A DNA stretch of 64,000 nt from Geitlerinema sp. BBD 1991-9 (GTDB taxonomy: Bacteria > Cyanobacteriota > Cyanobacteriia > Cyanobacteriales > Geitlerinemataceae): positions 1-64,000 of the forward strand of contig LWRO01000016.1 of the NCBI GenBank assembly GCA_001657325.1. The letters run 5' to 3'. A program made the position numbers and the translations under genes. This document shows, one piece after another, positions 19,908-44,612 of the stretch; the first letter of the stretch is position 1; each line of letters begins with the position of its first letter. Under the pieces are notes generated by a model. The model made no database searches. It was not told where the DNA came from and was given only the letters and a program-made list of their open reading frames with translations.

Positions 19908-20388
19908 CAGGTTGTTCGCCAAACCTCGAACCTTCCTGTACGTTTTAGTTTTGAGTCTTGTGGGTTGTCGCCAACAGTCGAGCATTACCAAACAATGGCA
20001 TGACGAACCGATAAATTATCTTCGATCGGCTCTGGTGTTCCAAAGTGCCAAGTACGTCGAAACGGGGGAATTTGCAGACGACTTCGACGATCTCGGTATC
20101 GAAATTCCCCGTGCGACAATTTTGTATGAATATCGGATCGATCGACTCGACGAACATCGCATTCAAATTCTCGCCATTCCTAAAAAGAAGGATCTCAAAA
20201 GTGCCACGGCTGCAGTTATCGGTTACGGAAGCAACACGCGCGATGCTTTATGTATTTCCGACAAGCCCTCCGCCAATCTCCTTGAATTCCCTGAAATTCC
20301 TCGAGATTTCCTCGAAAACGTTCGCTGTCCGAGTGGTTCGTCCGGCGGCGAACTATACGAACTGAGTCCTGTGAATAAAAATCATTAA
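19900..20388 (+). CDS. Type IV pilin-like lipoprotein (G/H family resemblance)
   Basis: A 162-residue predicted lipoprotein. A short basic N-terminus and a hydrophobic stretch end in the lipobox LVGC. The mature part resembles the soluble half of cyanobacterial 'type IV pilin-like G/H' proteins: YLRSALVFQSAKYVETGEF, DLGIEIP and YEYRIDRLDEHRIQILAIP, then a low-Cys tail with ICI-like CISDK. It lacks a prepilin peptidase site, so it is a lipid-anchored relative rather than a pilin. It overlaps the cca gene by 8 nt. Function unknown. Confidence 0.65.
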   Translation: MGNRLFAKPRTFLYVLVLSLVGCRQQSSITKQWHDEPINYLRSALVFQSAKYVETGEFADDFDDLGIEIPRATILYEYRIDRLDEHRIQILAIPKKKDLKSATAAVIGYGSNTRDALCISDKPSANLLEFPEIPRDFLENVRCPSGSSGGELYELSPVNKNH

Positions 20389-20428
20389 TTCGCCCCAAAA
20401 GAAACTCAACATTGTGCCTGTAAACCCG

Positions 20429-20585
20429 TAGTGGAATGGGTACATCTCAATTTCGTAGAATGACCCCTCCGCGCCTCGACGGCTTGACGACTCGACGTCT
20501 CGCCGAACGTCCTTCGGCACCTCCCCTTAGCAAGAAAAGGATGGGTAGGGTGCCATTGAAAAAGTGAGATGCACCCAGTGGAATT
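20429..20585. mobile_element. MITE family 1, copy B, with perfect 8-bp target duplication
   Basis: A 140-bp element whose ends are GGGTACATCTCAATTT (left) and, on the opposite strand, GGGTGCATCTCACTTTTT (right). It is flanked by identical AGTGGAAT copies. The interior contains the CCCCTCCGC / CTCCCCTTAGCAAG core shared with copies C and D. No ORF large enough for a transposase, so it must be mobilised in trans. Confidence 0.85.
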
Positions 20586-20624
20586 GCATGCAAAGCCACT
20601 ACGTTGGCAATTTTAGAAAGAGAG

Positions 20625-21950
20625 TTAAGAACCGGATTCCGCATGAAGAATATCGGCAGGCATTTTATTGGTAAACGTGTATTTTTCCAAAAACTGCCGA
20701 GCTTGTTGAATAGAGTCTTCTCCTAAATAATTTTTAGGGAAACGAGACATTCCCTCGATCGCAATTTTCCAAACTTGACGAGCGAGCTGAGCCAGTTCTC
20801 TATCCCTCAGCCCACTGACGGCTGCACGCCGCAAAAGTGCTTCAAGTAACGGAATTTTTTTTAATAATAAATCGAGGCAATTTTTTCGAGAAATTTCTTC
20901 ATATAAAAGCGTCGTAACTAAAATCACAGGAATTGGCTGCCACATCCTCGGCAGCATATCACAAGAGCGTAATTCAATGTATCGGCGAGGTCTAACTTCA
21001 AAGTAAAACGTAGACAAATGATAGATAAAATCGTCAACTATCGGCCAGCCATAAACTGGATGTCCGTTTTCAAGCCACTCCACAAAAGTCATTTCTAAAT
21101 TGCCCGGTTCGATCTGGTTTTCAGATAATTTAAAAAGAATGACCTTCGCGTTCAAAACCCTCTCACTCCAGGTTTCTAGAAGGTCGTCCTCAGACCCTTC
21201 ACAGCAGGGGAAACCGATATGGCTCGGCTCTAAATTTTGCCAAGCAATCGATCGAGTAGATACGCCATGAACAGATGGGCTACAAGCAAACGTTGCGGTC
21301 ACGATCGGGGAAATCAAATTAGCCAGCAACCATCTCTCTCGCCAGATCGATCGATCTCCCAAATCGAAATTCATGTGAATACTGGCGGTTTTGGTCATCA
21401 TCAAATTTCCCCATTGACCAAAACGTTCAAAAAATTTCATTAACGCCGCTTGTCGAGGGGTGTGAACTTGCAGATCGATCCGATCTCGCGGATGCCATCG
21501 ATCGACCCCTTCTCCGAGTAAAATAGCCTGATATCGATCGAACACTGCAGTCAGTGAATCTTGGAGACTTCTCGTATGACTTAAAAGTTCCGCCGGAGAC
21601 TCAAACGGACGAGTTGATATTTCAAGTTGTCCGCCCGCTTCAAATGTGATAAATCCTTCTGAGGACAGGGGATAGCGGCAGAAGGTTTTCTGATGACTTT
21701 CCCGGGTCTTAACGAGAGAATTGTTTTGTCGAGATAAAGCATCAAGAATCTCTAAAATTCCGGGTTTTCCCTGTAATTCGAGACGTTGAATCGGACTTCC
21801 GCCTCCATCGACTAAAAAAGGAAACATTTCCAACTCCAAACCCACTCTTTGAAGGTCTTTCGTCGAGTGAAACGTTCCAAAAGCCTTTTCTTTAGCAATC
21901 GATCGAGCCGTTTCTAGAGAAATTGAGTCTTGACGGTGGACTGTCGGCAT
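20625..21950 (-). CDS. Glutamate-cysteine ligase family protein (GCS2/EgtA-like)
   Basis: A 441-residue ATP-dependent carboxylate-amine ligase. Motifs of the GCS2 group: VGLELEMFPF (metal-binding Glu), FITFEAGGQLEISTRPF, NLMMTKTASIHMNFDLGD, ACSPSVHG and RPRRYIELRSCDMLP. The closest resemblance by eye is to EgtA (gamma-Glu-Cys synthesis for ergothioneine) and plant-type ligases, not the shorter cyanobacterial GshA. No egtB or egtD is present in the window. It is the last gene of a five-gene minus-strand group (25.5-20.6 kb), 333 nt after the SDR gene with a hairpin between them. In that setting it may make a gamma-glutamyl or other amide bond in a small molecule. The ATG at 21950 is the first ATG; an upstream TTG extends the frame. 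Confidence 0.72.
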   Translation of the reverse strand: MPTVHRQDSISLETARSIAKEKAFGTFHSTKDLQRVGLELEMFPFLVDGGGSPIQRLELQGKPGILEILDALSRQNNSLVKTRESHQKTFCRYPLSSEGFITFEAGGQLEISTRPFESPAELLSHTRSLQDSLTAVFDRYQAILLGEGVDRWHPRDRIDLQVHTPRQAALMKFFERFGQWGNLMMTKTASIHMNFDLGDRSIWRERWLLANLISPIVTATFACSPSVHGVSTRSIAWQNLEPSHIGFPCCEGSEDDLLETWSERVLNAKVILFKLSENQIEPGNLEMTFVEWLENGHPVYGWPIVDDFIYHLSTFYFEVRPRRYIELRSCDMLPRMWQPIPVILVTTLLYEEISRKNCLDLLLKKIPLLEALLRRAAVSGLRDRELAQLARQVWKIAIEGMSRFPKNYLGEDSIQQARQFLEKYTFTNKMPADILHAESGS

Positions 21951-22049
21951 TGTTTTTAAGTCTTTGAAGATTTCTTCGATCGGTGGGCTACATCTCAAAG
22001 CTGCAAATCAAAGTTGTAAATCAAAGTTGCAGAACCCTGTTTTTTGAGA

Positions 22050-22109
22050 AGCCGGGTATCTCTAGATATTCTCCGTCTTGGGTGTCTAATCTCTTAAAGA
22101 TACCCGGTT
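22050..22109. repeat. Inverted repeat between the SDR and ligase genes
   Basis: AGCCGGGTATCT (22050-22061) pairs with AGATACCCGGTT (22098-22109) across 36 nt. A 13-bp near-duplicate (AAATCAAAGTTG, twice, 22004-22031) lies just to the left. Related in sequence to the palindrome at 2429. It may attenuate read-through into the ligase gene. Confidence 0.55.
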
Positions 22110-22283
22110 TCTAAGAAATTAGACTAAGACGGTAGAGCGATCGGGTTTAAAAAAATCGTGGCGATCGGCAGTAAATCGAGTCGTTCTACCCACCCGATTC
22201 TTATTTTTATTGACCTACTTAGACCAAGTGAAATGCACTTGAATATTTTTTTGCAGTGAACCTCGACCAAAAAATTCAAAACT

Positions 22284-23099
22284 TTATCGAGCGGTCAATC
22301 CCCCATCAATTCCAATAATTTGCCCCGTCATATAACTCGCCTTCGGACTCGCCAAATACGCGACGAGCAGACCGATCTCTCTCAAACTCCCTTCACGGTG
22401 TAGGGGAATTCGAGCCAGTCTTTTGGATTTTTCCGTCTCATCTGACCAAGAAAAATCCGTCAGAGAGGTGTGGTATTCTCCTGGGGCGATCGCGTTGACT
22501 CGAACGTTATAATTCGCCCATTCCAAAGCCAATACCTTGGTCAGCATATTGACAGATGCTTTAGAGGCATTGTAAGCGGCAACATAAGGTGAGGCTTGAA
22601 TCGCACTGTTGGAACTGACATTAATCACTACCCCTTGCTTCCTTTCCAGCATACTGGGTGCAACCGCTCGGCAGCAATAAAATAGTCCGTGAACGTTCAC
22701 GGCAAAAATATTCAACCAGTCCGCATCGCTGATTCGGGAAGTAACCGTTTCTGGAACTATAGGAGGGTGCAGATCGACACCCGGTAAAGGAACGATCGGA
22801 CGTTTTTGAAACTGCCCTGCATTATTGACGAGGATGTCAATTTTTCCATAATGTTTGAGCGTTTGTTCGACAAAGCCATCCACTTGACTGGAATCAGTGA
22901 GATCGGCGGCAATAGCTAACGCTTGTCGGCCAGTTTGTTCGATTTCAGCCACCAGGGAATCTAGCTGACTTTGCGTTCGCGAAACTAACACTAAATCCGC
23001 ACCCGCTTCGCTCAAAACAGAGGCAATCGATCGACCAATCCCACGACCCGATCCAGTGACGATCGCCACCCGATCTTGTAAATTTATTTCTGGGAACAT
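22284..23099 (-). CDS. Short-chain dehydrogenase/reductase (SDR)
   Basis: A 271-residue classical SDR using NAD(P)(H). Rossmann motif TGSGRGIG, NNAG, catalytic Ser in INVSSNS, catalytic YNASK, and the C-terminal YMTGQIIGIDGG are all intact, so it should be an active carbonyl/alcohol oxidoreductase. Compared with FabG-type enzymes it has an insertion after NNAG (about 95-125). Its start overlaps the 3' end of the Ntn-hydrolase gene by 16 nt, indicating translational coupling. The substrate is presumably an intermediate of the same cluster and is not known. Confidence 0.88.
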   Translation of the reverse strand: MFPEINLQDRVAIVTGSGRGIGRSIASVLSEAGADLVLVSRTQSQLDSLVAEIEQTGRQALAIAADLTDSSQVDGFVEQTLKHYGKIDILVNNAGQFQKRPIVPLPGVDLHPPIVPETVTSRISDADWLNIFAVNVHGLFYCCRAVAPSMLERKQGVVINVSSNSAIQASPYVAAYNASKASVNMLTKVLALEWANYNVRVNAIAPGEYHTSLTDFSWSDETEKSKRLARIPLHREGSLREIGLLVAYLASPKASYMTGQIIGIDGGLTAR

Positions 23100-24226
23100 A
23101 TTAACGAAGAACTAGACAACAACGTTTTGAGGTCGTAGACTGTCGCTTGACCATTTCTGATATCTTTAAACTCATAAACTGTCATTTCTGCAACATTGAA
23201 AATATAGGAAGAAATAGTTCCCCAAAACGGCCCAGTTTGGAAAATATTATTCATGCCATTTTTATCGGTGCTTTCCCCCAAGGTTGCTTGTAAAGTTTCC
23301 AGTGAATGAATCCGATCGGCTCGGTTCCGTAATTTCCTCAAACGCTCGTAACTCGACTCCAAAATCGGCAACTGTTCCAACTCTGGAATCTGCAGCGAAA
23401 ATCGAGTGCTGTCTGGGAAATTAAACGGTGCTAACTCGTCACTGATAAAATGATTGGTATTCAACAAACCACTCTTTGAATGAACGACTCCCGTTTTTTC
23501 TCCCACGACTTCCACGACATAGAAATCCTGGGAATCGACGACCGCTAAAGACGCTCCGTTACCAATGGGATAATTCCGTTGTTTGGCCCGTAAAACGGCT
23601 TCCTCTGCACTTTGGCAACTGCGGCACAGATCGTGTACTAAATAGCTAGCAGGCAGTCCTCCAGGATGGTTTCCTTTGCGGTAGTAGGCATAGTTATAAC
23701 TGACGGCGAGTCCGTGTTCGTTCACACAGAATTGACCGCCAAACGGCATCAAAACCGGAGAAAAAGCGACATAGCGAAACTGGGATTTTTCCTGACGAAC
23801 AATTGCACCTTGGTAGGGAGCTAGGGGATATTGATAATCAAAGTTTTTGCCCAACAGCCGGGATTCCCCCGACTTACAACCCACGCCGCAGCACCCTTGA
23901 ACGACCCGCGTTCTATCTGCACCTAAAACTTCAGATAACAACAGGAAATAATAGATACTTGGCTTCATTTCGGGAACGCTGAGCATCCCGTTCAGATAAT
24001 CACTTGCCGGTCGAACGCGATCGAGTTGTTTTTGCAGCAATGTTATTAAATAATAGCCTTGGAGCTTTTGCAGAATTTTCCAAGGCCAAGGTTTTTTGAG
24101 TCGCTGCCAGTAGGGCGAATTTTCAAGAGTTTGCCGAGCCTGTTCGTATTTCTCGACCACCATCAGAGCGTGTTGTCGGCCAATTTCAAAGCTAGACCCT
24201 TCAAAAACATAAGGGGAATGATTCAT
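23084..24226 (-). CDS. C45-type / Ntn-hydrolase acyltransferase or amidase
   Basis: About 380 residues of the Ntn-hydrolase group that includes acyl-CoA:6-APA acyltransferase (peptidase C45) and linear-amide hydrolases. VFEGSSFEIGRQHA is the family N-terminus. The candidate nucleophile is the Cys in GVGCKSGESRLLGKNFDY (about residue 117), where precursor self-cleavage between Gly and Cys would occur. FCVNEHGLAVSYN and GLLNTNHF follow. Such enzymes form or break amide bonds between acyl groups and amino acids or beta-lactams. Starts at 24226 and 24256 are both plausible; the open frame begins at 24337. It is overlapped by the SDR gene and closely follows the epimerase gene, so it belongs to the cluster. 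Confidence 0.75.
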   Translation of the reverse strand: MNHSPYVFEGSSFEIGRQHALMVVEKYEQARQTLENSPYWQRLKKPWPWKILQKLQGYYLITLLQKQLDRVRPASDYLNGMLSVPEMKPSIYYFLLLSEVLGADRTRVVQGCCGVGCKSGESRLLGKNFDYQYPLAPYQGAIVRQEKSQFRYVAFSPVLMPFGGQFCVNEHGLAVSYNYAYYRKGNHPGGLPASYLVHDLCRSCQSAEEAVLRAKQRNYPIGNGASLAVVDSQDFYVVEVVGEKTGVVHSKSGLLNTNHFISDELAPFNFPDSTRFSLQIPELEQLPILESSYERLRKLRNRADRIHSLETLQATLGESTDKNGMNNIFQTGPFWGTISSYIFNVAEMTVYEFKDIRNGQATVYDLKTLLSSSSLICSQK

Positions 24227-24351
24227 GATAGATTCTTGGTTTCGGTTGCTTTCCATTGAATTGTCAATCTTAAGGGTACATTTTGATGTTTGTAAATTAC
24301 CAGAAACCGGATTTTTGGGAAATCTCCACTTTCTCAAAGGACATATTTAAT

Positions 24352-25398
24352 TTAATTTTTTTTTAGATTCATCTTTTGAGATTCACTCAATCTCAATCCA
24401 AATAAATCAGGGTTTTCTTGAAACCAACTGACCTCATCGCGAAGGGTTTCGTGAAACGGCCGAAATGTCACACCTAACTCCCGCATAGCTTTAGCAGAAG
24501 TCACTCGTTTGTTGGCTTTCATGTTCTGAATTCCTGCACGAGAAAGCAAGATTGGCTTTCCGCTTAATCGTCCATAAGTTTCGCTGAATCCAGCTAAGAG
24601 TAACAACAGAAAATAGGGAAGGTGTTGTTTGGGAGCCGGAATTCCAGTCACTTCAGCGAGCGTTTTAAAAATTTTTTCCATGCTGAGATATGTTCCAGCC
24701 ACCAGATAACGTTCCCCCCGCTGCCCTCGTTCGATCGCATCGATCGCGACCTGAGCGACATCGCGCACGTCAACGACAGTAGTACCGCCGGGAACAATAC
24801 CGGGTAACTTCTGCTTCAAAAAGTTTAGCACCAATCTACCGCTGTCAGTTGGAGAAAAATCCCTCGGACCAAACATCCAACCGGGTAAAATTGACACAAC
24901 GGAAAGAGAATGATGTTGAAGAAACGCCTCGATCGCCTGTTCGGCGAGCAGTTTGCTTTTAAAGTAAAGGTTTTCATTGGAAATTGCATTAGGCGGGGTT
25001 GTTTCATCTCCAGGTATCCCGTTTTTATTCTTGCCGATAATTCCTGCAGAACTGATATAGATGACTTTACGAATTCCAGCCTGTTCTGCAGCTTCTAAGA
25101 GTTTAACAGTTCCTCGAATATTAATCCGTTCTAACTGTTCCCAGTGACTTCCCGGTTGATAGTATTCGCGAAAGTATGCCGCACAGTGGAATAAAATATC
25201 ACAACCTTGGAGTTCGCTGGCAAAGCGATCGAGGTTGCCCATATCCCCTTGAATCCGGGTGACGGGTAAGCTTTTAAAGGTCGTATTTGCTTTTTTAGGG
25301 GAACGAACTAAGGCTTTAACTGAATATCCTTGTTTGAATAGTAAATGCACTAAGTTATTTCCCAAGAACCCAGTACTTCCGGTAACAAATGCTTTCAT
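24352..25398 (-). CDS. NAD-dependent epimerase/dehydratase (extended SDR, HpnA/3-beta-HSD-like)
   Basis: A 348-residue extended SDR. N-terminal TGSTGFLGNNLV binds the dinucleotide; ALVRSPKKAN suggests NADP(H) preference; the active site is SSAG with NLYFKSKLLAEQ (Tyr-x3-Lys form YFKSK). GWMFGPRD and VVDVRDVA are typical of the hopanoid-associated HpnA / dihydroflavonol reductase branch. A late hydrophobic stretch LPYFLLLLLAGF may associate with membranes. Second gene in the minus-strand cluster: 85 nt after the GNAT fusion and just before the Ntn-hydrolase gene. The substrate could be a sugar, sterol-like or polyketide-like ketone; not determinable. Confidence 0.82.
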   Translation of the reverse strand: MKAFVTGSTGFLGNNLVHLLFKQGYSVKALVRSPKKANTTFKSLPVTRIQGDMGNLDRFASELQGCDILFHCAAYFREYYQPGSHWEQLERINIRGTVKLLEAAEQAGIRKVIYISSAGIIGKNKNGIPGDETTPPNAISNENLYFKSKLLAEQAIEAFLQHHSLSVVSILPGWMFGPRDFSPTDSGRLVLNFLKQKLPGIVPGGTTVVDVRDVAQVAIDAIERGQRGERYLVAGTYLSMEKIFKTLAEVTGIPAPKQHLPYFLLLLLAGFSETYGRLSGKPILLSRAGIQNMKANKRVTSAKAMRELGVTFRPFHETLRDEVSWFQENPDLFGLRLSESQKMNLKKN

Positions 25399-25483
25399 CG
25401 GTCAATTTGAAATTCGATCGAAAAAGAAATTGACAAATTTCCCCATTTCACTTTAAAAGTCGGGGGATGCTGCACTGATGGCT

Positions 25484-26872
25484 TTAGCAAATTCTGATAG
25501 AAACTGGAACTGGAATGAGGGACTTCTGGTATATGAAATGTAAGGCGGGATCGCCAATCAGCAGAAAGGATTGAGGGCCGATCGACGAGCTAAATTTGAG
25601 ATTCATCTGCTTGACAATGTTTCCAAAACTGCCCCCCAAACTCAATGACTCCTCTAAGAATTCCCGAGCGAGTTTCAGTTCTCGCAAACTCATCCAAATC
25701 TCTCGCCGACAGACGATCGAATGGGAATGACCAAAGGACGCAAATTCACGATAATCTTGACTCCATTCAAGGGAAATCGGGTTTTGAGTCAAGACCATCG
25801 GTTGAGCGTTCGGTTTGATAAAATCAAGATAGGTTTGCAAGAGATGAAGCGAACAGTCTTCTGGGGTTTTGCTAATTTGAAAACCGAAAGCCACTTTTTG
25901 GGATTGTGTCGTTAGAATATCCCAGGTTTCAGGATTCATCTCAGTTCCCGCCATCCACACCCAAATTGACTCGCACGCTTCATCGATACAGAGTTTGGAA
26001 AAGCGATCGATCTCCTGCAAGTATTTACCCGTCAACATGGCGTAGCATTTCGCTAGAGGTCGCAGGGGACTGTCAGATTTTACAACTAAAACCTGTCGTT
26101 TGGGAATCAGGGAATTTATACGATCGAACGAGAATTTTTCTTGACCGTCGATCGAACTCGATTGAGATGATAACCAGTCCCCCGCAAGTTGAGTCTCAAT
26201 CGATTCCAATCCAATGAATGCGGTTTCGTTCGAGAGCGATGACAATTTTTCCATTTCCAGTACCGGAAACGTACTCAATATTTGACGACTTGCAATTAAG
26301 TCTTCGAGAACTGTTTCATATTCTTTGATTCCCTGACAGCAGATCAGCTTGACTGGGAATTTCCATTGACAGTCCCGTGCAAATAAAAAGGGACGAACTC
26401 GCTCCTTCATCCACTGTCCGGCGGACGTACATTGAGACCACTGATACCGTATAGGTGTCCACTCACAGCTAAAGCCATATTTTTGATAGGGTTTTCCAAC
26501 GATCTCACAGCCAAATTTGAGATACTCGTTTAGAATATCTTCTCGGCTATCGGCATAGAGCGTTTGAATCCCATTTTCTTCCATGATGCGAAGCATCCCA
26601 CCGACGAGGAGTGCGCCAGTGGTGCGGTTCCGTTTTAGAGATGCGGTGACAAAATAGCTGGCGAAAAAACGCTGCGTGTTACGATCGAACGCAACGCGCA
26701 TTGCACCAACCAGTCTCTGGTCTTGAACGACCATTAAATTTTTGCAGAAGTAATCGTTAAAAACATCTTGATAGTCTGGGTCTTGAATTTTTAATTCATC
26801 CACAAAGACTCGTCTTCTTAATTGAATGATTTGTTCGATGTCACCGCGATGTGTTGCAAGTTTGAGAAGCAT
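25484..26872 (-). CDS. GNAT acyltransferase fused to an unknown C-terminal domain
   Basis: A 462-residue fusion. Residues 1-150 look like a GNAT-fold N-acyl amino acid/autoinducer-synthase type transferase: IIQLRRRVFVDELKIQDPDYQD, LMVVQDQRLVGAMRVAFD, RNRTTGALLVGGMLRIMEENG and YLKFGCEIVGKPYQKYGF. The remaining 310 residues are not recognised. They include VLVVKSDSPLRPLAKCYAMLTG and end with GPQSFLLIGDPALHFIYQK, where LIGDPAL recalls the end of C25/CHAT-type caspase-like domains, but no His-Cys dyad of that kind is evident. It is the first gene of the minus-strand cluster. The long upstream region (about 1 kb) shared with the divergent radical SAM gene suggests joint regulation. Likely role: N-acylation starter step. 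Confidence 0.65.
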   Translation of the reverse strand: MLLKLATHRGDIEQIIQLRRRVFVDELKIQDPDYQDVFNDYFCKNLMVVQDQRLVGAMRVAFDRNTQRFFASYFVTASLKRNRTTGALLVGGMLRIMEENGIQTLYADSREDILNEYLKFGCEIVGKPYQKYGFSCEWTPIRYQWSQCTSAGQWMKERVRPFLFARDCQWKFPVKLICCQGIKEYETVLEDLIASRQILSTFPVLEMEKLSSLSNETAFIGLESIETQLAGDWLSSQSSSIDGQEKFSFDRINSLIPKRQVLVVKSDSPLRPLAKCYAMLTGKYLQEIDRFSKLCIDEACESIWVWMAGTEMNPETWDILTTQSQKVAFGFQISKTPEDCSLHLLQTYLDFIKPNAQPMVLTQNPISLEWSQDYREFASFGHSHSIVCRREIWMSLRELKLAREFLEESLSLGGSFGNIVKQMNLKFSSSIGPQSFLLIGDPALHFIYQKSLIPVPVSIRIC

Positions 26873-27167
26873 TGTTCTTTCTCGCTCGAACGTGAGTCGG
26901 TAAGGATAATATTCAATTGCCTAGCAGTCAAGAATTTCAATTTAGTTATCGAGAGTTTTTCTGACACTCCTTTTACTCTACCTTTTGCCGATCTGTATTC
27001 TCAGGGGGTTGGTATCCGATGAGCGTGCATTTGTATTCGGTTAATTGCTCCCTATCTCTCTAAAATTTATTCACAAGATTGGGATATGCAATGAGAATCA
27101 TTCTCCCAGGGATGGGAGAATAAATTGCTGCATTGGGGGAGAGAAAATCAGGAAGGTTGCATGGATT

Positions 27168-27341
27168 ATATAGCAAAATGAAATGAAGTGATTTGCAGAC
27201 ATAACCCCGTTGCAACTCCTATCAGATTGGGGGCGTTTCTCTTCTGAGTCCCTCATATCCCCGGAATCTTAGAGATGCTGGAGATCTTACACAGAAGGAT
27301 CGATCGGGAAGTTTTTTGCAAATCACTTAATATTGCTATAT
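27168..27341. mobile_element. MITE-like element with ATATAGCAA ends
   Basis: A 174-bp non-coding element. Outer terminal inverted repeat ATATAGCAA (27168-27176) / TTGCTATAT (27333-27341); inner inverted repeat AAGTGATTTGCA (27186-27197) / TGCAAATCACTT (27317-27328). A small hairpin ATCCCCGGAATCT...AGATGCTGGAGAT sits in the middle and resembles the palindrome at 29585-29617. TA dinucleotides border both ends. Confidence 0.65.
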
Positions 27342-27431
27342 TTCACTGCATTCTACTTCACTATTAGGTTGTTTTGCTTCTTTAATTCGGTATAGAAACA
27401 AAATTCAATATTAGTTAATTTAAAAATGGTT

Positions 27432-27446
27432 GTTATGTTACATAAC
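27432..27446. promoter_or_regulatory. Candidate operator GTTATG-TTA-CATAAC
   Basis: A perfect 6-bp inverted repeat with a 3-nt spacer in the divergent region between the two arms of the putative biosynthetic locus. Size and symmetry fit a dimeric repressor site. It is about 430 nt before the radical SAM start, so its target is uncertain. Confidence 0.3.
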
Positions 27447-27875
27447 GTAAATCAAGTATCAGAAGTTGAAAATCCCATAAATGCCATTAATAATGAGAGC
27501 GATCGATGTCGTTAGAACTTGTAAAGTCGATGAAGAATGTAAAGTTTTTTTGCGAAATCGACAAAGCATCAAAAAATATTGTACTATCCCTACTAATGTC
27601 TAATATCAACAGACTTGTAAGAAAGTAAAATTAGTTTCAATTGCAGCAATACTCGGCAATTGAACAGATGTTATTGCTAGGCAAAATTTTGCCCAATGCT
27701 GGATCGTTTGCAGTGAAGAGCTGTCAATAGATCTATTGATTAAATTTTCGTCTTTGTAACCACTCAAAATAGTTTAAAACATCCAATATATCGCTTATTT
27801 TAAGGTTTGTGTTTTGCACTTTAAATCTACTTCTTTATTTTAGAAGAAGTCAACGCAGAGTAAACAGGTGAAACC

Positions 27876-29438
27876 ATGAATAAGTTACGTCTTCTCTTCT
27901 GCACGCCGCCTTACCATCCTTATCACCTAGCTGACGAGAAAGTTTATATCGTCGAACCCTTACAATTTGAAGTTCTAAGTTCCCTGCTGGACAAAACACG
28001 ATTTGAGATCGATGTTCTCGATTTGCGCTTGGAACGTCGATCGGGGGTTCTCGAACGAAAATTGGCCTCGTTTCGTCCAGACATTTTTGTGATAAGCTGC
28101 TGGACTTTGCACCTGAATCAGGTTCGAGAAGCGTTAAAAACAGTCAAAGATTTCGACTCCAACGTTGTTACGGTTGTCGGTGGGGAACACACGCGGATTA
28201 ATCCTGCCGATCTCGCCATTGCTCAAACGGACTTTATTTGGATGGGTGAAGGTTATCAAGGATTCTCGGACTTGATAAACTATATTTATGATGGCGATAA
28301 TGGATATCGCCACTTGAACGGTTTAGCCTATCAGGAAAACGGTCGATTTATTTCCAACGGGCAAGCTGTTGTCCATCCCAATTTCGATTTAGATACGTTG
28401 CCCTTCCCCGATCGATCGATTACGAAAAAGTATCACAAACAATACTATCATCTCTGGTGGAAGCCCATTGCCACGATGCGGACTGCAATGGGTTGTCCAG
28501 CTCGTTGTTCTTTCTGTAACCTTTGGAAAGTCAACGCCGGGAAATTTTTAGGGTGGAGTCCTGAATACATAGCGGATTATATTTCCACCCTGGAAGAACC
28601 CTATATTTTGTTTGTCGATGACCACTGTTTTGGCGATCTCGATCGATCTTTTGCTTTAGGTGAAGCCTTATTAAAAAAGGGCATTCAAAAACAGTATTGC
28701 CTCTACAGTCGAGCCGATACGATCGCCGAAAATCCCGAACTGATCGAACTTTGGGCAGCGGTGGGGCTCAAACGAGTCCGTATGGGTTTAGAGAGTTATT
28801 CCGACGATACTCTTAGCAGCATGAACAAACACGCCTCTGTTGATAGTAGTTCAACAGCGATTAAAATTCTGAAGAAACATGGTGTGCTGACGGAAGGGCT
28901 ATTTCAGATCGGTCTAGATTACACCTATGAAAACTTTCAAGGGATGTTAAAGTACATTCGCGACCAAGAAATTGAGGTTCCAAATATTACGGTTTCGACC
29001 CCCATGCCCGGTACCGTAGAGTACACTCAGGCACAAGACCAGATCGTTTACAAAGAACCCGAATATTTTGATTTCCAACACGCCGTCATGGAAACGACCT
29101 TGGATATCAAAACCTTCTGTCACGAGTATAGTATGTTGATGATTCGCGCCCAGCGTCCGCCGCAAGAGCAGATTCGCCTCATGGGGTTGCGGAAATTTAT
29201 TATGAAGATGCCGAACTTCTGGCGATACTTTTGGTCGCTACGGACATCTTACAAACACTATCTTCCCGAAAATCGCGTTGGTTCGGGGAATGGAAAAACA
29301 TCCGATTTGGCGTTTTTGCCTTGGGTTAAAAACTATCAGAATCTAGATCCGCAACGACAAAAAGAAATCCACACCATCGAACGGCTCTATCGGGAAGAAA
29401 TGGCAAGTACTCAAGGTGCGGGTGCGTTTAAGGGATAG
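27876..29438 (+). CDS. B12-binding radical SAM protein (HpnR/BchE-like class)
   Basis: A 520-residue cobalamin-dependent radical SAM enzyme. The N-terminal B12-binding Rossmann domain (about 1-150) includes LRPDIFVIS-type and VVTVVGGEHTRINP segments. The radical SAM domain (about 195-420) has the cluster motif C207-x3-C211-x2-C214 in MGCPARCSFCNLW and the SAM-binding-like FVDDHCFGD and VRMGLES. This class typically methylates unactivated carbons or makes ring changes. Length and order resemble the hopanoid C-3 methylase HpnR, but orthology is not certain. It is divergent from the GNAT-SDR-Ntn-ligase gene group and may act on the same product. The ATG at 27876 follows an AGTAAACAGGTGAAACC leader containing an AGGTGA ribosome site. 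Confidence 0.82.
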   Translation: MNKLRLLFCTPPYHPYHLADEKVYIVEPLQFEVLSSLLDKTRFEIDVLDLRLERRSGVLERKLASFRPDIFVISCWTLHLNQVREALKTVKDFDSNVVTVVGGEHTRINPADLAIAQTDFIWMGEGYQGFSDLINYIYDGDNGYRHLNGLAYQENGRFISNGQAVVHPNFDLDTLPFPDRSITKKYHKQYYHLWWKPIATMRTAMGCPARCSFCNLWKVNAGKFLGWSPEYIADYISTLEEPYILFVDDHCFGDLDRSFALGEALLKKGIQKQYCLYSRADTIAENPELIELWAAVGLKRVRMGLESYSDDTLSSMNKHASVDSSSTAIKILKKHGVLTEGLFQIGLDYTYENFQGMLKYIRDQEIEVPNITVSTPMPGTVEYTQAQDQIVYKEPEYFDFQHAVMETTLDIKTFCHEYSMLMIRAQRPPQEQIRLMGLRKFIMKMPNFWRYFWSLRTSYKHYLPENRVGSGNGKTSDLAFLPWVKNYQNLDPQRQKEIHTIERLYREEMASTQGAGAFKG

Positions 29439-29450
29439 AAGAGATGATGA

Positions 29451-29485
29451 GTGCGTTACGTGGAAATACCATCTGTGTAACGCAC
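29451..29485. terminator. Hairpin downstream of the radical SAM gene
   Basis: GTGCGTTAC (29451-29459), a 17-nt loop and GTAACGCAC (29477-29485): a perfect 9-bp stem 13 nt after the stop codon. There is no strong T-run, so termination is likely weak or Rho-assisted. It may instead be the remnant of a MITE. Confidence 0.45.
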
Positions 29486-29584
29486 CTTACTGATTCTCTT
29501 GTTTTATCCCGTCGGACTTATGCAGAAACCGGGTTTGAAGCATAAGTTCCGATCGATCGTATTTCAGAGTACGTTGCTGCTCTC

Positions 29585-29617
29585 CAGATCCCCGGCATCT
29601 TGGAGATGCTGGGGATC
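29585..29617. repeat. REP-like palindrome
   Basis: AGATCCCCGGCATCT (29585-29599), loop TGG, AGATGCTGGGGATCT (29603-29617): a 15-bp stem with one G-T pair. A degenerate copy is found inside the MITE at about 27256-27286. Confidence 0.7.
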
Positions 29618-29799
29618 TGATTTCGATCGAGCTTTCCCTGTTGTTCCCGCAAACAGTGCGATACATTCACAATTGAACAACGGAGTTCTACCCCACCTCA
29701 TCACAGAGTTTAGAAACTCAAATGTTGTCAAAGTGACCGTTAAATGTAAAATATCCCTTAAGATTCCCCAAATTTATAGAAGAGGATAAGCATTTCGCT

Positions 29800-32013
29800 A
29801 TGACCGCAGCGACTCCAGCCGCCCCTAGTACAATTCCATCATTTTGTCAAGGTATTCAATTTTTCGCCGAATCCCTGCCCGGATGGGAAGAATATGGCAA
29901 AGAACCCGTCATCAAAGCCGGGGAAAAACTTATTGCCTCCACGAGCGACAAAGCCGCCGTTTACCAAACCATACTGGCGGCCGATGCTCTGCGCTATCTC
30001 ACGTTGCAAGTGACCTCGAGTAAAGCTTCCGGCCATCCCGGCGGATTTGCCAGCATCGCCGACACGATCGCCGCTTTGGTGATGTTGGGTCACAAAAACA
30101 TCATTACCGAAGTCGGCCACCACGCCCCCGGATTTTACAGCAACGTCTTCTTAGATCGATCGCTCGAAGACATGGGCATCGAAACCGTCCAACAAATGCG
30201 CGATCGATTCCGCGAAACCGGCGGACTTCTCGGCCACCTCTCCGGGCAAATCCCCGGACTCCTCAACCCCGCCGGGCCTCTCGGACAAGGGCAACACTTC
30301 GCCATGGCGGGCGCAAAACTCAACCCCGGCGTTCTCTTCCCCGTCACCATCGGCGACGGCGGCCTCGGCGAACCCTACGTCATGAGTAGCTTCGGTCACT
30401 TCAACACCGCCTATCCCAACGTCACCAACTTCCTCCCCATCCTCGTCTGGAACGGCTACAGCCAAGAACACCACAGCATGGTGTCCACCAAAACCAACGA
30501 CGAGATGATCGAATACTGGGCGGGGAACGGCTTCCACGAAATCATCCTCGTCGATGCCAAAGACTACGACGACTCCAACCAAGCCAGCGACTACGCCGAC
30601 AGCAGCCTCTTCTCCTTTGAAGGGCGCATGGCCTTTACCCAAGCCATCCTCGAAGCCGTTGACGAAGCGGCCAAATCTGCTTTAAACGGCGTTCTCACCG
30701 TTCTCATCGTCAAACAACTCAAAGGGGCAGGCGTTCACAAACGGGGCGCACAATCTCACAACCTCTATCCCGGCGACACCGTCGAAAAAGACTACATCGC
30801 CAACGCCATGAAAGCCCGCGCCCTCACCCCGGAAGCGTGGCAACTCGTCCGCACCAACTACGAACGCGCAGGGGGCGACACTGCTTCCAAAATCGTTCTC
30901 ACGGAATCCGAACGCGAAATTCCCGAACTCGGCGAATTACCCCTCACTGAGTTTCCCGTGGGTGGGGATAAAAAAGTGGCTACCACCGCGATGGGCGAAC
31001 TGGTGGTTCACGTCGGTCAAAAAGACCCCGATTTCATCGTCACCAACGCTGACGGGAACGCTGCATCGGGCATCAACAATATTAATATCGGCCTGAACAT
31101 TGTCCACCCCGTCACCGACGAAACCTATCATCAGCAACCGAACGGACGGGTTTACGAACCCCTCAGCGAAGATGCTTGTGCGGGACTCGCCGCAGCGATC
31201 GCTCTGTTTGGCGGACGGACGCTGTGGTGTTCCTACGAATCTTTTGCCATCAACGGTTTACCCATTTGGCAAACCGTCACTCAAGCCATGGCAGAATTGC
31301 GCCGTTCTACTCCTTCCACCATTGCACTGTTTACGGCGGGGGCGCTAGAACAAGGGCGTAACGGTTGGACGCACCAACGACCGGAAATCGAAAATTATTT
31401 CGCGGCAATGATGCGAAATGGCAATGTTTTTCCGCTGTTTCCTTGCGATGCCAACAGCATCCAAGTTTGTTACGATTGGGCAGTTTCGACGAAGAATAAA
31501 GGGATTACGATTACGGCCAGTAAAACGCCGTTACCGATTCGATCGACCCTCGAACAAACTCGTCAAGGATTAGAACAAGGCGCGTTCGTGTTAGACGAGC
31601 AATCAGGCGAAAAAACGATCGTGTTTGCGGTTCTCGGTGACATGATTCTGCTTCCGGTGTACGAAGCCGTCGAACAATTGAAAGCGCAAGGAATCGGCAG
31701 CAAAATTGTTTCCGTTATCAATCCTCGCCGTTTGTATCGCTCTTCCGATGTGGCTTGGGATACCTGTTCTGAAGCCGATGGCGGTTTCCTCGACGATGCG
31801 GAATTTTCCGAATTGTTCGACGGCGATGCGTTGTTAGCGGTTACGGGCGGTTCGAGTGCCATGTTAGAACCGGTGATGTTGCGGAGTAGTTCCCCTCGCG
31901 ACGTATTCGCCTGGAAGCGTGGAGAAACGGCATCGAGTGCGGCGGCAGTGATGAAAATGAACGGCATTACTGCGGAGAATTTGGCGAAACGAGCGACCGA
32001 ATTGTTGGCTTAG
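29800..32013 (+). CDS. Transketolase-like TPP-dependent enzyme (transketolase/phosphoketolase superfamily)
   Basis: A 737-residue thiamine-diphosphate enzyme of sugar-phosphate metabolism. The N-terminal half shows SSKASGHPGGFASIADTIAAL. The TPP motif is GDGGLGEPYV...N (GDG-x-N type). The middle domain has ITNADGNAAS and LAAAIALFGGRTLWCSYESF. The C-terminal part (LEQGRNGWTHQRPEIENYFAAM, FPLFPCDANS, ITITASKTPLP) looks more like phosphoketolase than classical transketolase. It is longer than ordinary cyanobacterial transketolase (about 670 aa) and shorter than phosphoketolase (about 800 aa). The exact reaction is therefore left open. Codon use is strongly GC/C-rich in the first 1.3 kb, suggesting high expression. 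A Rho-independent terminator follows. Confidence 0.78.
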   Translation: MTAATPAAPSTIPSFCQGIQFFAESLPGWEEYGKEPVIKAGEKLIASTSDKAAVYQTILAADALRYLTLQVTSSKASGHPGGFASIADTIAALVMLGHKNIITEVGHHAPGFYSNVFLDRSLEDMGIETVQQMRDRFRETGGLLGHLSGQIPGLLNPAGPLGQGQHFAMAGAKLNPGVLFPVTIGDGGLGEPYVMSSFGHFNTAYPNVTNFLPILVWNGYSQEHHSMVSTKTNDEMIEYWAGNGFHEIILVDAKDYDDSNQASDYADSSLFSFEGRMAFTQAILEAVDEAAKSALNGVLTVLIVKQLKGAGVHKRGAQSHNLYPGDTVEKDYIANAMKARALTPEAWQLVRTNYERAGGDTASKIVLTESEREIPELGELPLTEFPVGGDKKVATTAMGELVVHVGQKDPDFIVTNADGNAASGINNINIGLNIVHPVTDETYHQQPNGRVYEPLSEDACAGLAAAIALFGGRTLWCSYESFAINGLPIWQTVTQAMAELRRSTPSTIALFTAGALEQGRNGWTHQRPEIENYFAAMMRNGNVFPLFPCDANSIQVCYDWAVSTKNKGITITASKTPLPIRSTLEQTRQGLEQGAFVLDEQSGEKTIVFAVLGDMILLPVYEAVEQLKAQGIGSKIVSVINPRRLYRSSDVAWDTCSEADGGFLDDAEFSELFDGDALLAVTGGSSAMLEPVMLRSSSPRDVFAWKRGETASSAAAVMKMNGITAENLAKRATELLA

Positions 32014-32412: not shown

Positions 32413-32695
32413 GTCACGAAAAATAGTTTATTATGAGAAATAGAGATGTTTGTTTAAAAATACTCGTAAATCCAAGAAAATCTTAATTGCCATTTTTTCA
32501 ATTCAAATCTCGATCGATAGAATTGCAAATTTATGGAGTAAACAAATTAATTTGTTTTAATTAAATTTAGGTAAATTTCTGCTTTGCGACAGCTATCTTA
32601 TCGATTTTAAGTAAATCTTAAATAATTTTACAAACTCTGGAAGCTTTAAGAACCCCGAGCCTACAATCGAAGCAAAGATCGATCGAGTGTGGGAG
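32413..32695. other. AT-rich intergenic region upstream of the ATPase-STAND locus
   Basis: About 280 bp, markedly AT-rich, between the Uma2 remnant and the ATPase gene. Probably carries the locus promoter, but I could not pick a definite -35/-10 pair. No gene is seen. Confidence 0.4.
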
Positions 32696-34012
32696 ATGGC
32701 CGTGGAGTTGGACGTGCAGAAGTTTTTTCGGGCTTGCAACCCGTCGAAAACTCTCAATTACAAAAAGGCTGAAGACCGACGCTACTATATCGATTTCTCC
32801 CAAGTGCGCGGCGCAGAAGTGGTTGAAGAAGTGGGACGGACGATCGAGTTCATGGAACCTGACCCCACCTGTCAGCTTTTTACGGGACATATCGGCTGTG
32901 GGAAGTCTACGGAGTTGCTGCGGCTGAAAGCGGAATTGGAAAACAAGGGGTTTCACGTCGCATACTTTGAATCGACAAATGTACTGGAAACTAGCGATGT
33001 GGAAGTTAGCGATTTGCTGTTGGCGATCGCACATCAGATAAGCGAAAACCTGCGAGACGCCGGAATTCCCCTCGTCGGACGCTATTTCGCCAACCTGCTG
33101 CAAGAGTGCGCGAACTTCCTGCAAACCCCGGTGCAAATCGAGACGCAAGCGGAAATTTCCCTGGGAATTGGCAAACTCACGGCGAAAGCGAAAGAAAGTC
33201 CGACGTTCCGCAGTCAACTGCGACAGTACCTCGAACCGCAGACGAAACAGCTTATCGATGGCATTAATAACGATTTGCTGGTTCCCGCGAACGAAATCCT
33301 GCGGAAACGAGGTAAACAAGGATTGGTGGCGATCGTCGATAACCTCGATCGCGTAGACAATCGCAAACTCGACAGCGGCTTGACGTTACCAGAGTACCTG
33401 TTCGTTCGACGGGGCGACCAACTGCGGAGTTTGAAGTGCCATCTCGTGTATACCATTCCGCTGGCGTTGCTGTTTTCCAACGAACACCAGGCGTTGAAAA
33501 ATCGACTGGGAGGCGGGAGCAGTGCTATGGTGTTGCCGATGGTTCCAGTGCAGTTGCGCGATGGTAGTCTCTACACAGAAGGACTCGATCGATTAAAACA
33601 GATGATTATGGTGCGGGCGTTTCCCCAGGCGACACCGGAAGAACGGCTTCAATGGGTCGATCGCGCCTTCGATTCGAGGGAAACCTTAGACTGGCTGTGT
33701 TACCAGAGTGGCGGACACGTGCGAATGCTGCTGAGTTTGGTGTTTAGCTGTCTGCGGAAACACAAGCCGTTGCCGATTACGCGGAAAATGGTAGAAGTCG
33801 CTGTTCGAGAGGCGCGAGACGAGTTGCGACTGTCGATTACTGAGGACGAGTGGACGTTGTTGCGGAAGGTGTTGCAGACGAAAGAGGTGGCGGGGCCAAT
33901 AGAATCTCAAACGCTATTGCGGAGTTTGTTCGTTTTTGAGTATCGGAACGCGGAGGACGGTCGTTGGTTTGACGTGAATCCTCTGTTAGACGGATCGCCA
34001 GAGTTAGGTTAA
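32696..34012 (+). CDS. P-loop ATPase (AAA/STAND-like) upstream of the TA cassette
   Basis: A 438-residue ATPase. Walker A is TGHIGCGKSTE (about residue 65-75) and Walker B is LVAIVDNLDRV (about 210-220). The rest is helical with no recognised sensor or nuclease part. A SGGHVRMLLSLVFSCLR segment (about 345) resembles sensor-2/winged-helix regions of AAA ATPases. The ATG at 32696 lies three codons after an in-frame GTG; either could be used. The stop (34010-34012) is followed immediately by the first copy of a 30-bp repeat that matches the start of the large STAND gene. This gene and the STAND gene were probably adjacent, with a gap of about 5 bp, before the toxin-antitoxin pair came in. Confidence 0.72.
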   Translation: MAVELDVQKFFRACNPSKTLNYKKAEDRRYYIDFSQVRGAEVVEEVGRTIEFMEPDPTCQLFTGHIGCGKSTELLRLKAELENKGFHVAYFESTNVLETSDVEVSDLLLAIAHQISENLRDAGIPLVGRYFANLLQECANFLQTPVQIETQAEISLGIGKLTAKAKESPTFRSQLRQYLEPQTKQLIDGINNDLLVPANEILRKRGKQGLVAIVDNLDRVDNRKLDSGLTLPEYLFVRRGDQLRSLKCHLVYTIPLALLFSNEHQALKNRLGGGSSAMVLPMVPVQLRDGSLYTEGLDRLKQMIMVRAFPQATPEERLQWVDRAFDSRETLDWLCYQSGGHVRMLLSLVFSCLRKHKPLPITRKMVEVAVREARDELRLSITEDEWTLLRKVLQTKEVAGPIESQTLLRSLFVFEYRNAEDGRWFDVNPLLDGSPELG

Positions 34013-34558: not shown

Positions 34559-34588
34559 GAACCATGACCGATTGCTCGCGAACCTATC
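34559..34588 (+). repeat. Direct repeat, right copy (start of STAND gene)
   Basis: Contains the start codon (34564-34566) of the STAND gene. It is 27/30 identical to 34013-34042, with three C/T or C/G substitutions. Together the two copies bracket the toxin-antitoxin cassette. Confidence 0.85.
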
Positions 34589-37500
34589 CAGATTTTGACG
34601 ACGAGATCGTCGCCGCCAATCGCGAGGCATTGGACGAGGTAACAGGGACGATCGAGCGGTTGCAGGGTGAGTTTACGTTGCTGCTGCTGCGGTGCAACTA
34701 CCGCCATCTGAGGGAATTGATGGGTCAGCAGTTACCGCCACAGGTGCAGAAATTGGTGTTAGATCGATCGACCAAGGCGCTGTTCCCGACGATCGCTCGA
34801 GAATTGGGAGATTCCCAGCCAAAAGCCGTCTCGATCGCGGGATTAGAAGCGTTAGACGATGACGATCTCGATACGTTGCTGGGGTCAGCAAATGTGGCGC
34901 GGGAGGAGTTTCGCCGTAACTTCCGGTTTCCGTTGTTGCTGTGGGTGGACGATCGCGTTTTCGTGAAATTGGTGCGACTGGTTCCCGACTTCAAAAGTTG
35001 GGCGACGACGACTCGCTTTCAACTGCCAACGGAGGCGATCGAGGCGTTTTTGCGTCAGAGTGCCGATCGCTTTTTCGATCGCGTGTTGGAAACCGGCGCG
35101 TTTGTCGTCGAACCGTTGGAATCGCGAGACATCGCCGAAATTGAGTTGGCACTGAAGGAGTTACAGGAACGAGACATCGCCCTCGAACCGGACATTCGAG
35201 CGAGTTTGGCGTTTGGTCGAGGTCGTCAGTGCTACAAACGACAGGAGTGGGATGCGTCGATCGATCGTTACGACGAAAGTTTGAAGTTTTGGGAGGACAA
35301 CGCCAACGCAAGGGCTGAGTTCTGCGTGAGAGCGGGAGTCGTGCGGTTTTATCGGGGATTGGCGTACCGACGGAAAGCGGAGACGGTAGAAGACGGTCGA
35401 GCCTATTGGGAAACGGCGAAAACAGAGTTAGAACGGGGTCTACAACAGTTTGAGGCAGCACAACGACCCGACCTCGTGGCGCGGTTTATGGGCGAGTTGG
35501 GCGAGGTGCTGGTGCAGTTGGAGGCGTGGGAGGAGCTAGACCGTCGCGCTCGGGAGTGGTTGGAACTGCACCGAGACGATGCGGCGAATTTGGCGCGAGA
35601 TTGGGGATTTTTGGCAAGGGTTGCGGCGCAGCGAGGGCAGTGGCAGCAGGTGAAAGAACGGGCGGATAAGGCGTTGGCAGCTTGGGAACGGAGTACCCCC
35701 CTTAATCCCCCCTTGGTAAGGGGGGAAACAAGAGCGTCGAGTCTTCAGTACCGTTTGCTTGAGGCGCAGGCGTTGAAGGAACTCGGTGACGTGGAAGGGG
35801 CGATTTCGATTCTCGAAAAGGCCAGTGCGACAACGTCCCCAGCCCTCGACCCGAGCGGTTACGTGCGAGTGCTGCACGACCTGCGAGATTTGCACTACGC
35901 CCAAAAGCATTACGTTCAAGCGTTTGAAATTAAACAGAAATGCAGAGCGATCGAGTTTCAGTTTGGATTTCGGGCGTTTGTGGGTGCGGGAACGCTGGAA
36001 CCGCAAATCGAGACGGAGGAAACAGACACACGAGAACAGGTCGTTTCAGTATCGGGGCGACAAGGGGATATCAACGAACTGGCGAACACCCGCATTCCCG
36101 AAGATCGCTACAAACTGACGGTGCTTTACGGGCCGTCGGGGGTGGGGAAAAGTTCGCTGCTGAGAGCGGGATTGTTGCCCGCGTTGCAACATCGAGCGAT
36201 TCGATTTCACATGGTATTGCCCGTCATCACCTGCGTTTACGAGAATTGGGCGCGGGAGTTGGGAAGACAGATGCGCGAGGCGTTGGAGGAGTATCCCGAA
36301 AAGGTTTGGCCGGAAACACCCTTGGAGTCAGTGGAGGAACTGCGGGCGCAACTGCAACGGAACGCCGAAAACCGTTTGTTGACCGTGTTGGTGTTCGACC
36401 AGTTCGAGGAGTTTTTCTTTACCAACCCCGATCTCGAAACTCGTCAGGAATTTTACGCCTTTCTCAAAGACTGCCTCAAAGGAATCGAACTCCAGTTCGT
36501 GAAGGTGGTGCTGTCGCTGCGGGAAGACTACCTGCACTGGCTGTTGGAGTTCGAGCGATACGCCCGACAGCAGGGGATTCCCCACGATGTTCTCAGTGCG
36601 GAGTGGCGGTACTACTTGGGAAACTTCTCGCCGGAAGCGGCTCGCCAGGTGGTTGAAGAGCTGACGCAACGCACGCAACAGACGCACCGGAAGTTGGAAG
36701 GGGATCTCGTCGAGCAGTTCGTGGAAGATTTGAAGAACGCTTTGGGAGAAGTGCGTCCCATCGAGTTGCAGGTGGTGGGGGCGCAGTTGGAAGCGGATGA
36801 GATTACGCGGTTAGTGCGGTATCGAGAACTCGGTGAGAACCCGAAAGCGCAACTGGCGGAACGGTGGATTGCGATGGCGGTGGCGGACTGCGGCGAGGAA
36901 AACAAAGGTGCGGCGTGGCAAGTGCTGGCGGCGTTGACGGACGAGAAGGGAACGCGACCGCTGCGAACGAAGGCAGAGTTAGAAGCGGTGCTGGAAGACT
37001 ATCGTAAGTTGGTCGGCGGCGAGAGAGTGTCGCTAGACGAGCCGATTCTCAGGATTTTGGTGGGGTCGGGGTTAGTAGTGCGCTGGAGCCAGGAGCCGGA
37101 AGACCGCTATCAGCTCGTTCACGATTATTTGGTGGAGTTGGTGCGGCGCAAGTACAACGCCGATTACCGACAGCGACTCGAAACCCTGGCGGAGCAGGTG
37201 CATCGGGAGGAGAGCATCCGTAAGAAATGGCAGAAGTGGACGCTGCGGGGGTCGGTGGCGGTGGTCGTTGTTTTGTCCGGCTTGGCTGTTAGGGAGGCGC
37301 TTATGTTGCGGGAAAGGCAAATTAGTGTAGTAAAATCATGGATTGCTCAAGCTGAATTCTACTATCAAGATGACAGGCAGCTTGAAGCAATGATAGCCAG
37401 CATATATGCGCTAGAACAAGCGAAAGAAATACGGGGATCTAGGCCATTATTAATGAAATTGGAACCACTCATCTATTCTACATACGAGAAACATAAATTC

Positions 37501-44381: not shown

Positions 44382-44612
44382 CGTCTGACTCAAATAATTT
44401 CACTGCTTCTGTCTTCTATATTAAGTCTTATTGGGATTAATACGATCGATGTCCGACAAGCTGTAGCTTAAAATGATTTTTATAGGGCTTCACCTTGCTG
44501 AATCTCTCAAAAACAGGAATTCAAACGAGGATAATACAGGGGATATATCAAGATTTAATTTTTTACATCAGAGGTCGATGTCTTTGATCTGAGCGATTGG
44601 CTCGCGATTTTT

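Follow-up and report, generated by a model that had tools for sequence, protein, structure and literature searches.

A rare, conserved orphan biosynthetic gene cluster with an unusual enzyme set in Geitlerinema sp. BBD 1991-9 and two Calothrix genomes

Positions 1 to 64,000 of contig LWRO01000016.1 from Geitlerinema sp. BBD 1991-9 (the window, by which we mean the whole 64,000-nucleotide stretch analysed) carry an orphan biosynthetic cluster that is real, rare and conserved and has an unusual set of enzymes. Its six genes are real and intact, and five of them make up a conserved unit: a GCS2-type amide ligase resembling EgtA and the plant glutamate-cysteine ligases (20625..21950, minus strand, PF04107 9e-23), a short-chain dehydrogenase/reductase (SDR) oxidoreductase (22284..23099, minus strand, PF13561 4.5e-59), a C45/AAT-family N-terminal nucleophile (Ntn) acyltransferase or amidohydrolase (23084..24226, minus strand, PF03417 3e-17), a fusion of a GNAT-type N-acyltransferase domain (about residues 1-150) with a C-terminal domain of about 300 amino acids (25484..26872, minus strand), and a B12-binding radical SAM enzyme, probably a C-methylase (27876..29438, plus strand, PF02310 2e-13, PF04055 5e-13). 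The sixth gene, for an HpnA-like NAD-dependent epimerase/reductase (24352..25398, minus strand, Pfam epimerase 1.9e-33), is by genome comparison an accessory found only in the window. An earlier, sequence-only reading had described these six open reading frames (ORFs), and we recovered all of them with the same coordinates and strands. We consider it very probable that this is a functional, co-inherited cluster.

When 84,980 species genomes were scanned with the C45 protein as query (a search sensitive to close relatives only, from which the genomes most similar to the window's own may be missing), there were two matches, in Calothrix rhizosoleniae SC01 (locus L014) and Calothrix sp. MO_167.B12 (L015). 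On the MO_167.B12 contig the genes for the radical SAM enzyme, the GNAT fusion and C45 are followed, in the same direction, by a 2-oxoglutarate oxygenase gene and a second GCS2 gene, after which the contig ends, and the SC01 contig starts with the GNAT fusion, C45, the oxygenase, the second GCS2, the SDR and the first GCS2, followed by a TnpB-like gene and a further ORF that we take to be dapB. The SC01 radical SAM gene lies on a separate contig (L032); 417 nt separate its 3' end from the end of that contig, the side on which the GNAT gene would be expected. Combined, the two assemblies give radical SAM-GNAT-C45-SDR-GCS2 in a single order; radical SAM, GNAT and C45 are common to the window and both Calothrix genomes, and SDR and GCS2 are common to the window and SC01. 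The orientation of the radical SAM gene in the window is inverted relative to MO_167.B12, and the flanks differ: the window has a tRNA nucleotidyltransferase by Pfam and NCBIfam and an ORF presumably encoding a transketolase, and Calothrix has different genes there. Between the window and Calothrix the amino-acid identity is 60-89%, and the ratio of non-synonymous to synonymous substitution (dN/dS) is 0.06-0.26, values that are rough because dS is 0.98-1.49. The recurrence of the core in two Calothrix genomes with low dN/dS bears out the earlier proposal that the genes form a linked set of biosynthetic type. Orientation had been the only ground for assigning the radical SAM gene to that set; since this gene is linked with GNAT in the same order on one MO_167.B12 contig and has orthologues in both Calothrix genomes (83-84% identical), we conclude that it belongs there. 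The earlier reading had also not recognised the set as a named pathway, and no description of it was found among the listed matches of the open-licence literature.

The idea that all six genes keep company was not supported. No epimerase orthologue was found in either Calothrix assembly (best matches 29-31% identity) and no epimerase-type ORF lies between GNAT and C45 in the SC01 or MO_167.B12 loci, and the Calothrix set has two other genes after C45, a WelO5-like 2-oxoglutarate oxygenase (PF22814 2e-22) and the second GCS2 ligase, which is very divergent (PF04107 41.6 bits, PDB E 0.0032) and consistent with amide chemistry. The oxygenase had no match in the window's genome at 1e-10. It keeps residues H155, D157, H243 and R254 (HxD, distal His and Arg), with H155-N-D157 in both members. 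WelO5 halogenases have Gly in place of the HxD Asp; the Calothrix oxygenase retains this Asp, which sets it apart from the WelO5 halogenases, and it is therefore more likely a hydroxylase. At E<=1e-10, 9 of 382 phylum genomes have WelO5-like genes. We considered these as partial copies of the cluster and rejected the idea: a tblastn search at 1e-3 of nine neighbourhoods of 12-16 kb found no GNAT, C45, GCS2 or radical SAM gene nearby, and weak SDR/epimerase matches only.

The five minus-strand genes had been described as separated by short gaps or overlaps. C45 and SDR indeed overlap by 16 nt and two gaps measure 85 and 125 nt; the SDR-GCS2 gap of about 333 nt is not a short one. In SC01 the end of C45 is repeated ahead of SDR (69 bp, 81%, E 7e-12), the copies flank the oxygenase-second GCS2 pair, and the window's C45-SDR overlap can be aligned to both junction copies. 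The simplest reading of this duplication is an ancestral C45-SDR overlap into which the oxygenase-ligase pair later inserted.

The core is rare in each sample that we searched. C45 was present in 1 of 195 genomes of a relatives sample (the window's own) and in 6 of 386 of a phylum-even sample (its own and five at 25-32%). In the relatives sample, GNAT matches were confined to 4 of 195 genomes (its own and three at 26-28%, in the GNAT domain only) and GCS2 matches to 3 of 195 (its own, one at 25% and one chance-like). The radical SAM enzyme at E<=1e-60 was found in 1 of 386 phylum genomes, again the window's own. A GNAT profile run against 217 genomes of the family of SC01 returned both Calothrix proteins and one 35-residue fragment. 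Plasmid searches with C45 and GNAT gave no match, and those with GCS2 gave nine records with identity never above 31%. Low GC was rejected as proof of transfer: the six genes have at most 48.3% GC, but so do 6 of the 22 other ORFs tabulated (28 of 35 ORFs were tabulated, seven, mostly overlapping, having been left out by hand). Because GC is not distinctive and another radical SAM orthologue pair of the window's genome and Calothrix, our single yardstick, is 79% identical, either transfer or loss may be the explanation.

The C45 protein is probably an Ntn acyl-removing or acyl-exchanging enzyme, as predicted from its family. Homology began only at residue 37, and we therefore moved the start from TTG 24337 to ATG 24226 on the homologue alignment. 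The protein passes its profile cut-offs (NF040521 93.7 bits against 85, PF03417 63.5 against 23.2), is 78-79% identical to the SC01 and MO_167.B12 orthologues, and the Gly-Cys processing/nucleophile site is present in all three cluster members; among aligned distant homologues, the nucleophile Cys is kept in two of three and absent from the L036 protein. C45 shares the Ntn superfamily and the Gly-Cys site with its best-known relative, isopenicillin N acyltransferase (IAT, the C45-family AAT of penicillin biosynthesis), which, according to passages of PMC7183595, strips an amino-acid side-chain amide, freeing alpha-aminoadipate from isopenicillin N, and then re-acylates. The likeness is at family level only, and PDB sequences gave no match at E<=0.1. 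Unlike the penicillin system, the window set has no non-ribosomal peptide synthetase (NRPS) or polyketide synthase among its genes, and its C45 has two different partners, the GCS2 ligase and the B12-radical SAM enzyme. The neighbouring SDR has the YxxxK motif (YNASK) and is 88.6% identical to its SC01 orthologue.

The GCS2 gene probably starts at ATG 21950 by comparison with homologues, the first-stage ORF having extended to a TTG at 21998. Its product belongs to the superfamily (PF04107 81.5 bits against a cut-off of 21), is 71% identical to the SC01 orthologue and aligns with the plant glutamate-cysteine ligase 2gwc (7e-18, residues 115-420) across the EVRPRRYIELRSCD region. It thus shares the family and the aligned catalytic region with EgtA and the plant-type ligases, but it lies outside EgtA of ergothioneine biosynthesis, scoring less than half of the cut-off (TIGR03444 176.2 bits against 370.8), and differs in sitting in a biosynthetic cluster, with a divergent second copy in Calothrix.

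The radical SAM protein is a B12-dependent radical SAM enzyme, with B12-binding and radical SAM domains and a CxxxCxxC motif (CPARCSFC). This domain pair and motif are common to the cobalamin radical SAM methylases HpnR, KedN5, TokK and CysS, of which CysS and TokK are weak PDB sequence matches, but the window protein reaches the cut-off of none of the 21 NCBIfam families listed for it, including that of the hopanoid C-3 methylase HpnR (TIGR04367 170.3 bits against 650). Likewise, the epimerase falls outside HpnA (TIGR03466 271.5 bits against 367.65).

The GNAT fusion has a full-length orthologue in MO_167.B12 (60% identical). The GNAT domain stays under the Pfam cut-off (Acetyltransf_5 E=0.0067, or 0.0008 with the N-terminal 150 amino acids alone; this piece scores 20.4 bits in the window and 20.5 in MO_167.B12 against a cut-off of 22.4), with sub-threshold Autoind_synth and FeeM matches as well. 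These 150 residues are weakly similar to the LuxI, FeeM and OlsB N-acyl amino acid synthases; the likeness is sub-threshold, and the window protein differs from them in its fusion to an unassigned domain of about 300 residues. It also lies outside the Nit1C/Sll0786 nitrogen-starvation cluster family (TIGR04045 24.1 bits, MO_167.B12 24.4, against 68.45). For the C-terminal 300 or so amino acids, neither Pfam nor PHROGs nor the PDB sequences gave a convincing match (best PDB E 0.41); the only Pfam match, EAR (E 0.004), is under its cut-off and not seen in the MO_167.B12 protein. A caspase/gingipain-like fold was considered for this domain, and no match supported it.

We infer the reactions, their order and the product from these enzyme families; the acylated amino acid or dipeptide that the earlier reading had put forward as the product is likewise conjectural. 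Our best explanation, to which we give somewhat less than even credence as a whole, is a small specialised-metabolite cluster with radical SAM, GNAT fusion, C45, SDR and GCS2 as core. The GCS2 ligase would form an amide between the gamma-carboxyl of glutamate, or of an acid like it, and the amine of a small precursor; the cobalamin-radical SAM enzyme would then methylate an unactivated carbon and the SDR would alter a carbonyl or alcohol, both on the masked compound; C45 would cut away the glutamyl-type group or exchange it for another acyl, as IAT does with alpha-aminoadipyl; and the GNAT domain would put on or supply the N-acyl group. The epimerase-type reductase in the window and the WelO5-like oxygenase and second GCS2 in Calothrix would be host-specific accessories. 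GCS2 ligases of known function form gamma-glutamyl amides, an analogue one carbon shorter than the alpha-aminoadipyl amide. It is the presence of GCS2 and C45 in one core that suggests a group added by the former, kept during methylation and reduction, and removed or exchanged by the latter; this acyl-on/acyl-off order is a doubtful part of the proposal. More broadly, a carrier-free GCS2 and C45 pair adding and swapping a glutamyl-type group around a cobalamin-radical SAM methylation would be a penicillin-type exchange without an NRPS, with the C45 and B12-radical SAM partnership recurring in the phylum; we rate this combined claim as improbable.

Other loci support, without proving, the partnerships of ligase with Ntn-hydrolase and of Ntn-hydrolase with methylase. 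In five of five loci (L033, L034, L035, L036 and L013) of another family of the phylum, the gene immediately after C45 encodes a B12-radical SAM enzyme, and in the three examined the best radical SAM profile was KedN5 (222-239 bits against a cut-off of 700). In genome G084, of the window's order, genes for a GCS2, a penicillin amidase, a class IV aminotransferase and an unassigned 465-amino-acid protein stand in a row (L037:2582-8788), possibly a second ligase/Ntn-hydrolase cluster. The 465-amino-acid gene was rejected as a GNAT-fusion homologue, the match covering just 36 residues.

Several observations weigh against the glutamyl-type proposal. The radical SAM enzymes of the five C45 loci are just 22-23% identical to that of the window, and these loci count as one independent event because all lie in one family; G084 is a single case with a GCS2 only 24% identical. 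A GCS2 match in genome G087 (about 80 amino acids, three in-frame stops, antisense to a CHAT-FHA gene) was treated as chance. The window-type GCS2 was found in two of the three genomes and not in the MO_167.B12 assembly, through either a contig break or true absence, and since the window's GCS2 scores under the cut-offs of all three NCBIfam ligase families matched, glutamate is just a candidate substrate; none of the sequences reveals a substrate. The similarity to GNAT profiles is weak and the C-terminal domain of the fusion without assignment, and AlphaFold models of the fusion and of its C-terminal part are poor (mean pLDDT 38.6 and 35.9). Moreover, GNAT and the second GCS2 of SC01 are each interrupted by an identical copy of a 131-bp repeat whose middle is G-rich (L014:1200-1330 and L014:4252-4382), so that the pathway may be decaying there; both genes are uninterrupted in MO_167.B12. 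Finally, C45 might remove an acyl installed by GNAT instead of the glutamyl group.

This last role leads to the main rival, an N-acyl mask or prodrug, in which GNAT would attach a fatty acyl to an amino acid, the product would be elaborated by GCS2 and the radical SAM enzyme, and C45 would take the acyl off at the end, much as PvdQ-type acylases remove acyl groups. The weak N-terminal Acetyltransf_5, Autoind_synth and FeeM matches, an OlsB match for the Calothrix protein (E 0.16) and the adjacency of GNAT and C45 in Calothrix speak for it, but all GNAT-type matches are under curated cut-offs, the GNAT loop keeps R-x-x-G without the final small residue of the motif, and Pfam found no transporter among the six genes (signal peptides were not searched for). 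We regard this rival as rather unlikely. A ribosomal peptide precursor is disfavoured, since no small ORF is common to the spacers: ORFs of at least 20 amino acids from six window stretches (32) and eleven Calothrix stretches (30) gave no match at E<=0.1, a comparison covering spacers and flanks, outside of which lie the annotated genes and any divergent precursors elsewhere.

It is very unlikely, in our view, that the set makes no secreted product and instead modifies a lipid or cofactor, for example by methylating a membrane lipid head group. The best NCBIfam matches of the radical SAM enzyme and the epimerase are the hopanoid-associated HpnR and HpnA, but both miss their cut-offs (170 of 650 and 271 of 368 bits), the conserved core does not include the epimerase, and a radical SAM enzyme restricted to one of the 386 genomes is unlike a housekeeping lipid role. 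That unrelated genes gained by horizontal transfer lie together here by chance, as the lower-GC stretch, patchy distribution and mobile-element traces might suggest, is scarcely credible and already largely refuted by the recurrence of the core in two Calothrix genomes with different flanks, the low dN/dS and the overlapping gene pair.

The 1003-nt spacer between the GNAT and radical SAM genes had been called a 1-kb regulatory region. The spacer is real and may be regulatory: promoter-like matches number 28 in 20000-30000, against a shuffle mean of 16.5 (sd 3.6), and 10 of them fall in the spacer, but it is A+T-rich, and no sequence conserved with the Calothrix spacers was found in it (best E 0.37). 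It contains a 174-bp element with near-complementary ends (27168..27341; arms 27168-27186/27323-27341 and 27183-27197/27317-27331, DNA fold z -2.7), perhaps a transposon relic, to which the rest of the genome gave one partial match of about 61 bp at 82%. Outside the cluster, the window carries an RPE65-family (carotenoid oxygenase-type) gene at 42984-44393 and an nSTAND1 NTPase with WD40 repeats at 34564-38676, whose neighbouring ORF (32687-34012) looks ATPase-like by eye. No tRNA, tmRNA or Rfam match was found in the 64-kb window.

The cluster thus presents a very rare and defined enzyme set, to which the GNAT fusion contributes a domain of about 300 residues new to the Pfam, PHROGs and PDB-sequence collections as far as convincing matches go. 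With three hosts found and a split into core and accessory genes, strain comparison offers a way to look for its product. Further, if the ligase and C45 do act as an add-and-swap pair, the cluster would make acyl-exchanged, C-methylated small molecules by a carrier-free route.

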